52,567 nucleotides of DNA from a virus, in the IMG/VR virus record IMGVR_UViG_3300034104_007004, positions 1 to 52,567 of that record; one strand, written 5' to 3'. The notes beneath the pieces were generated by a model that did no database searches, was not told where the DNA came from, and saw only the letters and a list, made by a program, of their open reading frames with translations. A program made the position numbers and the translations under genes. Positions 11,847 to 16,133 of this stretch are shown here, piece after piece (positions within the stretch are counted from its first letter, which is position 1; the number at the start of each line of letters is the position of its first letter).

Positions 11847-12254
11847 TGGAGGTGGCGGGAATCGAACCCGCGTCTTGCTCAGTTTACCCATAAAGGACTA
11901 CATGCTTAGGTCAGGGTTTGTTTAACCCTCCGAAATATTTGGTTCCTTTTTTTCCATCGTTACCAACAACTGTGGAGGATTCACTTAAATCGGTAGAACC
12001 CTAAACGAGACCTTTATTCCTTTTAGGGTAGAAACCACACCGTGGGGACTTCTGTTTCTAGGTTATATGTCCATCGACCCATTGTTGCTGAAGCCTTAGG
12101 CTACAGTAACTTCCTCAGCAGAGAGAAGACCCACTGCCTCGAGTTTTGCGAAAGTATCGCCTTTTGATTGTTGCTTCCGTAGATTAAGGTGATAGGAAAC
12201 ATCTCACCGCATGCCCCGTATGACTAACCCTGCCAATCAATACCGGTCACCCCC
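11847..12254 (-). ncRNA. ssrA: tmRNA (SsrA)
   Basis: The ends form an alanine-tRNA-like domain: 5' GGGGGTGACCGG, with GGGGGTG pairing to the 3' CACCTCC, and a T arm GCGGGTTCGATTCCCGC. Discriminator A, CCA not encoded. Inside is a short frame (12161-12096) whose stop lies in the loop of the hairpin AGCCTAAGGCT, the usual tmRNA arrangement, followed by a region rich in pseudoknot-like complementarities. tmRNA with SmpB rescues stalled ribosomes and tags the nascent chain for proteolysis. Here it has its own host-type promoter and a structured leader. No smpB gene is visible in the window, so host SmpB is presumably used. Confidence 0.92.
12096..12161 (-). other. tmRNA tag reading frame, 21 codons
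   Basis: Reading from GGC at 12161 the tag is 21 residues, beginning GDTFAK and ending EEVTVA, then TAA. The preceding TCAAAA context and the stop in a hairpin loop fit tmRNA rules, although the exact resume codon is inferred. The end differs from the ALAA/LAA degron of host tags, and the tag is about twice the usual length. Confidence 0.65.
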
Positions 12255-14135: not shown

Positions 14136-16133
14136 TTACTTACCGAGTTTTATTTCCTCATTCTCAACTTTGAGTTTGTACTTCTTTCCTTCCTTGATTT
14201 TCTCGGTGAGAACCAATTCTGAAATATAGTCTTCAATCTTGTCTTGGATTGCCCGTTTGATAGGACGTGCTCCGTAGACCTCATCGAAACCGATTTTGGA
14301 AATGTAATCAACCAAGGTTTGGTCGTAACTGAATTCGTACTTCAACTCCTTCATACGTCCCATCAGTTTGTTGAGTTCCAAACTAACGATTTGGTTGATG
14401 TTCTCCTTATTCAAGGTCTTGAACACGATAGTGTCATCGATACGATTCAAGAATTCAGGGGAAAAGAAATGTTTCATTTCCTTCATCAGGATTTGTTTCT
14501 TAGCCTCCTCGTTGGAGTACTTGTTGGATGAGAAACCAATACCCGAACCAAAGTCTTGAAGTTTCCTAACACCAAGGTTTGTGGTCATGATAATAAGGGT
14601 GTTCTTGAAGTTGATTTTACGACCGAGTGAATCCGTGACATGACCATCATCAAGAACCTGAAGAAGGATTGAAAAAATGTCTTTATGGGCTTTTTCAACC
14701 TCATCAAACAAGATTACACAGTAGGGTTTGTTTTTAACTTGTTCGGTAAGTTGTCCACCCTCTTCATAACCTACATACCCTGGGGGTGCTCCAACCAAAC
14801 GAGATACGGTGTGTTTCTCTTGGTATTCACTCATGTCCATTCGGATAAGGGCGTCTTCAGAACCAAACATCTCTTTGGCAATTTGTTTAGCCAAGTGTGT
14901 TTTACCCACCCCAGTTGAACCCAAGAAGATAAACGAACCAATCGGTCGGTTGGGGTCTTTGATTCCAATACGATTACGACGAATAGACTTGACGATTTTC
15001 TCGATTGCCTCGTCCTGTCCGATAACCTTTCCTTGAATGGACTTATCCATGTTGATAAGTGCTTTGGTGTCGTCAATGGACATCTTATTCACTGGAATTT
15101 TGGTCATCGAGGAAACCACATCATAGACTTGTTCTGCTGAGATGGGATTACGAGTAGAAGCAAACTGTTCCTCGTACTTCTTTTTTTCAGCATCGAGTCG
15201 TCCCAAGACTTTACGTTCTTTGTCACGGAGTTCTGCTGCTTGTTCGTAATTCTGACGTCTTACAACATCCATCTTCTGTTGTTTCACATCAGCAGCTTCC
15301 TTCTTGAGTTTCTCGATGGACTCAGGAACCTTTTGGTCGGTTTGGGAACGGGCACCAACCTCATCCAAGATATCGAATGCTTTGTCAGGGAACTCACGGT
15401 CTGTGATGTAACGGTCAGCTAGTTTGACACAGAGTTCAACAATCTCATCCGAGTAAGAAACCTTATGATAGGATTCGTACTTATCACGGATATTCTTGAG
15501 AATCTCGATGGTTTCAGAAACCGTTGATGGGTCAACGATAACCTTTTGGAATCGACGTTCAAGAGCGCCATCCTTTTCAAAAGATTTGCGGTATTCATCC
15601 AAGGTGGTAGCACCGATACATTGAAGTTCACCCCGAGCAAGTGCTGGTTTGAAAATGTTGGAACCATCCAAAGAACCGGATGAATTACCTGAACCAATCA
15701 AGGTGTGAATCTCATCGATAAAGATGATAATATTGGGATTGTTTTGAAGTTCTTCCAAGATAACCTTGAGTCGCTCCTCAAACTGCCCACGATACTTTGT
15801 ACCGGCAACCACAGCGGTTAGGTCCAAGTTAACAATTCGTTTGTCTAACAAATTTTTGGGACACTCCCCTTCGACAATCTTCATCGCCAAACCCTCAACG
15901 ATAGCGGTTTTACCACTACCAGGTTCACCCAAGATAATTGGATTGTTCTTCTTTCGACGTGAAAGAATCTGAGCAATACGGAGGATTTCCCTCTCCCTGC
16001 CAATGACAGGGTCAAGTTTTCCTTCGGTCGCCAACTTGTTCAAATCCCGTGAGAAATTATCCAACACAGGGGTTCCCGATTCAGATTTCTTTCTGCTGGT
16101 GGTTTTGTCGTCGTCGTCCATTGTTTCGTTCAT
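14136..16133 (-). CDS. ClpC-like AAA+ unfoldase without N-domain
   Basis: This 665-residue protein has two AAA+ modules: Walker A GEPGSGKT (69-76), Walker B IIFIDE (~136-141), arginine finger in ALERRF (~190-195); a UVR-type linker ([12 protein letters not shown], ~297-308); then Walker A GSTGVGKT (405-412), ILFDEVE and a C-terminal sensor domain (GARPIKRAI). It starts just before the first module, so the Clp N-domain used for adaptors is missing. IGF at 532-534 lies where ClpA/ClpC dock on ClpP, so partnership with host ClpP is likely. It should unfold and feed proteins in an ATP-dependent way. It is divergent from the UVR protein gene at 16298 across a region with repeated TGACA-N3-TGTCA sites. 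Confidence 0.92.

Follow-up and report, generated by a model that had tools for sequence, protein, structure and literature searches.

Does the tmRNA gene of a T4-like virus furnish unfinished proteins with a tag that departs from the degradation signal of its host, and which protease would such a tag address? The question was raised by a virus record of 52,567 bases (the whole stretch analysed here, in the following called the window), which encodes a T4-like capsid protein (PF07068), a portal protein (PF07230) and a terminase. For this locus a tag had been predicted that is unusually long and lacks the ALAA end, and that might send proteins to another protease, such as a phage unfoldase, or stabilise them. 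The features on which the following analysis is based are compiled in the table.

Positions of the tmRNA gene, its tag and the linked protein genes in the window
Feature	Position	Strand	Basis
tmRNA (ssrA) gene, 408 bases, CCA not encoded	11847..12254	minus	Rfam RF00023, full length
Tag frame: GGC resume codon, 21 codons, TAA stop	12096..12161	minus	translation, A at -4, frame-specific conservation
Helix 5 hairpin, tag stop codon in loop	12084..12110	minus	folding prediction
M20-type metallopeptidase, PepT/tripeptidase-like, 276 aa	13273..14103	plus	Pfam PF01546, E 6.8e-6
ClpC-like AAA+ unfoldase, 665 aa, two ATPase domains	14136..16133	minus	Pfam, nearest solved structure

The window contains a real tmRNA gene with a real, conserved tag of phage type. 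Model RF00023 matched 12254-11844 of the minus strand over its positions 1-374 (80.7 bits, E 8.3e-30, gathering score 47); since CCA is not encoded, the end of the gene was placed at 11847 instead of 11844. The tRNAs of the window do not encode CCA either. Read from the sequence, the acceptor stem (5′ GGGGGUG, 3′ CACCUCC) harbors the wobble pair G3-U70, which we take to be the alanine identity mark. A tRNA-like domain formed by both ends, an A at position -4 of the resume codon, an open frame and a stop codon in helix 5 were all present. The whole RNA folded modestly better than shuffled sequences (z -1.84), and in 79 of 91 distinct sequences from related phages the loop of a predicted hairpin held all or part of the tag stop codon. 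ARAGORN gave no tmRNA at this site. Its readings of three relatives agreed with ours (GNTFAKMATLGLTREASVVAA in L310, GNTFAKLEAFGLMSAERVAVA in L209 and GNVINKLSAVGLIRAEEAVVA in L240), while in L311 it began too late (AEEATVVA) and the tmRNAs of L312 and L313 were missed.

Translation of the tag frame yielded GDTFAKLEAVGLLSAEEVTVA, 21 codons ending at a TAA, and this tag together with its stop codon occupied exactly the predicted interval. The two remaining frames of the same stretch read AILSQNSRQWVFSLLRKLL and RYFRKTRGSGSSLC, each closed by a stop codon, and neither has an ALAA end. The original prediction of a long tag without this ending was thus borne out; a host-type ssrA degron, i.e. about 10 residues with LAA or a similar end, is not what the window encodes.

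Relatives of the tag were sought with sequence patterns and through the Clp protein. Searching with a pattern built on the tmRNA's 3′ part recovered 18 viral stretches; a second, degenerate one that describes the end of the tag recovered 73 viral contigs, in all of which the tag was in frame and immediately followed by a stop. The same tag pattern gave 36 hits in 84,980 bacterial and archaeal species, none of them in a tmRNA. As the degenerate pattern fixes VTVA, the uniform ends of the 73 contigs are uninformative. To avoid this bias, 80 loci were gathered by means of the Clp protein and searched with a profile restricted to the part of the RNA that follows the stop codon. Of 79 new loci obtained in this way, 64 revealed a tmRNA, and each of these 64 carried a tag of the family type. 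In the other 15, the sequence ended at most 3.4 kb past the Clp gene, so that they were probably cut short, the tag being situated 2.0-6.6 kb from Clp elsewhere. The ends of the tags in the Clp-gathered set varied, and a shared ending was dropped as the defining feature of the family.

Altogether, tags were readable at 154 loci on 150 contigs, comprising 21 residues in 138 and 22 residues in 16 cases; they represent 71 different peptides and 88 different DNA sequences. Their consensus is approximately G-N-[TV]-[FLI]-x-K-[LM]-x-x-[LIV]-G-L-x-R-x-x-x-V-x-x-A. G11 and L12 were constant in all 154 tags, G11 being required by the search pattern for the 73 contigs and the tag of the window itself, but not for the other 80 loci. 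Not one tag ended with LAA. A final A was present in 149 (by set 74/74, 59/64 and 16/16), and some tags ended with VVTI, VTVS, VVEA or VVKA. The interior (K6, L/M7, G11, L12) was more constant than the penultimate positions. An A at -4 of the resume codon was found in 154 of 154 members, and of the 143 resume codons that were read, 137 were GGC, while GGA and GAC occurred three times each. The tmRNA backbone had strongly diverged (58% mean column identity among ten members). The phage tag is a conserved family that is constrained in its interior, beyond its end.

The peptide itself looks to be under selection, judged from its codons. For 75 distinct 21-codon tags dN/dS was 0.46 in frame and rose to 0.76 and 1.32 when the frame was shifted; 44 distinct tags of the Clp-gathered subset gave 0.49 versus 0.75 and 0.98. 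As the compared pairs are related, these values are descriptive ratios and not a test. The tag had no Pfam match and no match in named phage records, and a search of 15,107 open stretches from the family loci revealed no copy of it; the idea of a tag derived from or common to a phage protein was rejected.

Many of the family tmRNAs have unusual T-loops. Group I introns interrupt the T-loop in L006, L010, L013, L015, L016, L018, L022 and L023 (Rfam), according to our own reading after its first base, and a break of the same kind was seen in L049, L050, L058, L066, L074, L075, L124 and L151. In bacterial tmRNA, four T-loop sites have been described (PMC11915505, in excerpt). The T-loops of L052, L053, L059, L136, L149, L174, L176 and L180 lack the usual TTCGA and contain AGTCGGA, GGCGG or similar sequences.

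The best relatives of the capsid protein include phages of Flavobacterium, Rhodothermus and Microcystis. Together with the G at the start of many host tags, these relatives point, though not firmly, to Bacteroidota as likely hosts. In a sample of 61 Bacteroidota genomes, 59 possessed a tmRNA over the cut-off, and ARAGORN was used to read the best 30 of these 59. The tags comprised 9-10 residues and ended with AA in 29 of the 30, the thirtieth (L338) being miscalled; the phage tag therefore differs from the host type in length and end. According to a database paper from 2025, tags of 10 residues are the commonest among its 97,179 sequences (PMC11915505, in excerpt). Flavobacterium phage immuto, Microcystis phage Mel-JY01 and Rhodothermus phage RM378 were considered as cultured models. 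Their capsid protein is related; they gave no Clp match and no tmRNA over the cut-off (Mel-JY01 showed a single 17-bit fragment below it), and were rejected.

The neighborhood of the tmRNA gene is conserved as well. The phage Clp was detected in 49 of 49 tag-bearing records (the 48 longest of the 73 contigs and the window) and in four of four more. Among solved structures it is closest to ClpC, and it has two AAA domains and a loop for ClpP docking (IGF at residue 532; G533 and F534 constant in nine diverse members); its NCBIfam scores fell under the cut-offs of the ClpB and ClpA models. Since the alignment begins at ClpC residue 152, the phage protein lacks the N-terminal adaptor-binding domain. 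At all 120 loci holding both genes, Clp and tmRNA reside on one strand with the tmRNA 2.0-6.6 kb downstream, and at all 120 the M20 peptidase gene, which was not a selection criterion, lies between them. H67, D69, D110, E136, E137, D161 and H232 of the peptidase were found in 121 of 121 sequences and D111 in 118; these positions presumably are the metal-ligand and catalytic residues. A structure model (mean pLDDT 84.5) best matched the PepT aminopeptidase 3gb0 (E 7.7e-12). With these positions and a modelled M20 fold, the enzyme appears to be PepT-like. ClpP was encoded by six of the 49 tag-bearing records, 18-29 kb downstream of Clp, and three phage ClpP sequences have an intact Ser-His-Asp triad by our own reading. 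Its absence from the window is uninformative because the sequence stops 14 kb downstream of Clp. None of the 49 records contained an smpB gene.

Other genes occur in this region. A 2OG-Fe(II) oxygenase gene (PF13640; 12378-13112, minus strand) is located between tmRNA and peptidase in the window, and a similar gene was found at seven loci. At 116 of 120 loci, a protein family of 337-650 aa with no assigned function is encoded between Clp and tmRNA; the relative in the window is found elsewhere, at 996-1910.

We also determined tags of other phage tmRNAs. A generic tmRNA pattern retrieved 114 viral stretches with 99 new loci, 17 in the long-tag family and 82 others. Where several tag starts fitted in the latter, the start after TAAAC or a similar sequence was chosen. 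By this heuristic reading, at least 13 of the 82 loci encode tags of at least 25 residues, belonging to several unrelated types (e.g., AEDTEVDALLAQAEYIFNNADEFVTADVEEALFA and AKVITNAVKSVKSFLTNAAESMFACEDELCLMAA); tags of 25-34 residues were read at L224, L229, L233, L238, L244, L248, L261, L279, L281, L282, L287, L290 and L297. Six of the long-tag loci lay on tested contigs, which were devoid of this Clp. Conversely, one of 19 non-family tmRNA contigs of at least 60 kb contained a Clp, which is 57% identical and located 23 kb apart from a tmRNA with the 9-residue tag GKETFAFAA. A general rule connecting long tags with a phage Clp was therefore rejected, and the argument from Clp linkage is limited to this family. 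Two huge phages with Clp disclosed no tmRNA over the cut-off.

The 484 kb phage LR756508.1 has a tmRNA at 92434-92880 (L305), for which we read a 36-residue tag ending with KPAAV and ARAGORN gave GRRKPLSW. A second tmRNA-like piece of 112 bases without a tag is present at 414804-414915 (L309), and the Clp of this phage, 48% identical to the family Clp, is encoded far from the tmRNA. Phage tmRNAs with odd tags are known from mycobacteriophages. In the Mycobacterium phages MrMagoo and SlimJimmy (L351, L352) we found unannotated tmRNA genes with the tags AAFVAADYAVGV and AAFVDADYAVAA; by our own reading, these two cluster M phages have 12-residue tags. Long tags in several unrelated groups suggest that the tags of phages hold information beyond the host degron. 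Reports of such tags are probably too few, ARAGORN having missed or misread some of them.

What, then, might the family tag do? Our tentative reading, which falls slightly short of being probable, is a phage module for trans-translation and degradation, with a tag that serves as a degron for the ClpC-like unfoldase encoded by the phage itself. From the charging of the RNA to the recycling of amino acids, including the tagging step and the binding of the tag by the phage Clp, the following course is what we infer. Host SmpB and the phage tmRNA would rescue stalled ribosomes during infection, and the tmRNA would append its own alanine and the 21-residue tag of phage type to the unfinished protein. 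The unfoldase would recognise the tag, mainly by its conserved interior, and hand the protein to ClpP, encoded by the phage in some relatives and otherwise supplied by the host. The PepT-like peptidase would cut the resulting peptides down towards reusable amino acids. In this way the virus may possess its own protein-disposal line during infection. The step in which the phage Clp reads the tag is assigned less than an even chance. A more specific version is possible and correspondingly more doubtful: the interior, approximately G-N-T-F-x-K-[LM]-x-x-[LIV]-G-L, could be the recognition element of the phage ClpC lacking its N-domain, which together with the linked tripeptidase and ClpP would, with no need of host ClpXP, break down stalled proteins of host and phage to amino acids. 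Of the predicted routing to a phage unfoldase, the ClpC-like gene adjoining the tmRNA at 120 of 120 loci stood up to analysis, while the reading of the tag by its product keeps the conditional form given here. Long tags without Clp elsewhere, the single Clp with a short tag, and Clp without tmRNA in two huge phages count against the module.

Alternatively, host ClpXP might accept the tags, most of which still end with a small hydrophobic residue. The N-terminal part would then be a second element that accelerates degradation, either by docking an adaptor or by giving unfolding a longer handle, and the linked Clp and peptidase would do other jobs. The A-ended tags (149 of 154) are consistent with this idea, as are unrelated phages with long tags, several of them AA-ended, on contigs without such a Clp; the ends VVTI, VTVS, VVEA and VVKA, however, lack the AA of the 29 readable host tags, and the linkage of unfoldase and peptidase to the tmRNA would be left aside. 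We regard this explanation as unlikely without being far-fetched.

It is improbable that the tag does not serve destruction at all and instead shields or re-targets rescued proteins, by stabilisation or by delivery to a phage or host partner. LAA is absent from all 154 tags and the interior is constrained like a binding motif, but the motif occurred in no phage protein searched and has no known partner. The linked unfoldase, the peptidase and, in some relatives, ClpP fit poorly with stabilisation, the other fate that had been envisaged for the tag. The phage might also need nothing but ribosome rescue; the exact tag would then be of little consequence, and its proximity to Clp a matter of inherited gene order. 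Tag ends do vary, the members have their gene order by common descent, and this descent alone could account for the synteny of Clp, peptidase and tmRNA; conservation specific to the frame across 21-22 codons amid a diverging RNA, and the constant GL of 154 tags, make this explanation quite improbable. Finally, a false call or a decayed tmRNA with an untranslated tag, as might be suspected from the ARAGORN miss in the window and the odd or intron-bearing T-loops of some relatives, is very improbable in view of the full-length Rfam match, the A at -4 in 154 of 154 members, the in-frame conservation, the stop codon in a hairpin loop and the independent ARAGORN reading of relatives.

The data define a conserved phage family in which the tag occurs jointly with the unfoldase and the peptidase. 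A simple reporter assay could address whether a phage substitutes a degradation signal of its own for that of the host, and if the proposed module is true, it would provide a new orthogonal pair of degron and unfoldase. Within the open-licence literature searched, no listed title or abstract described this tag family or the linkage of Clp, peptidase and tmRNA.

Compared with the one-piece tmRNA of Bacteroidota, the phage RNA shows the same full RF00023 match, tRNA-like ends, A at -4 and stop in helix 5, and its tag starts with G like many host tags. It differs by 21-22 instead of 9-10 residues, a conserved interior and an end without LAA. Streptomyces phages likewise carry a tmRNA gene in a lytic-type genome without smpB, but their tag is short and ALAA-ended (annotated as ANSKFAFALAA). 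In huge phages, tmRNA and SmpB have been reported (PMC7162821, in excerpt). For the methylophage Melnitz, amino-acid recycling by a phage tmRNA has been proposed; its gene is a two-piece one, and the available part of the article mentions no special tag, Clp or peptidase linkage (PMC9004378). Like ClpC and ClpA, the phage unfoldase has two AAA domains and an IGF or VGF loop, whereas it is devoid of their N-terminal adaptor-binding domain. The nearest parallel in kind is the ssrA tag of Mesoplasma florum, which is altered in length and sequence and, as stated in the accessible part of the source, was shown experimentally to be matched to Lon (PMC8138137). There, as proposed here for the phage, the tag is matched to a protease other than ClpXP; in contrast to the phage module, that system is cellular, employs Lon rather than a ClpC-like unfoldase, and has experimental proof of its own.
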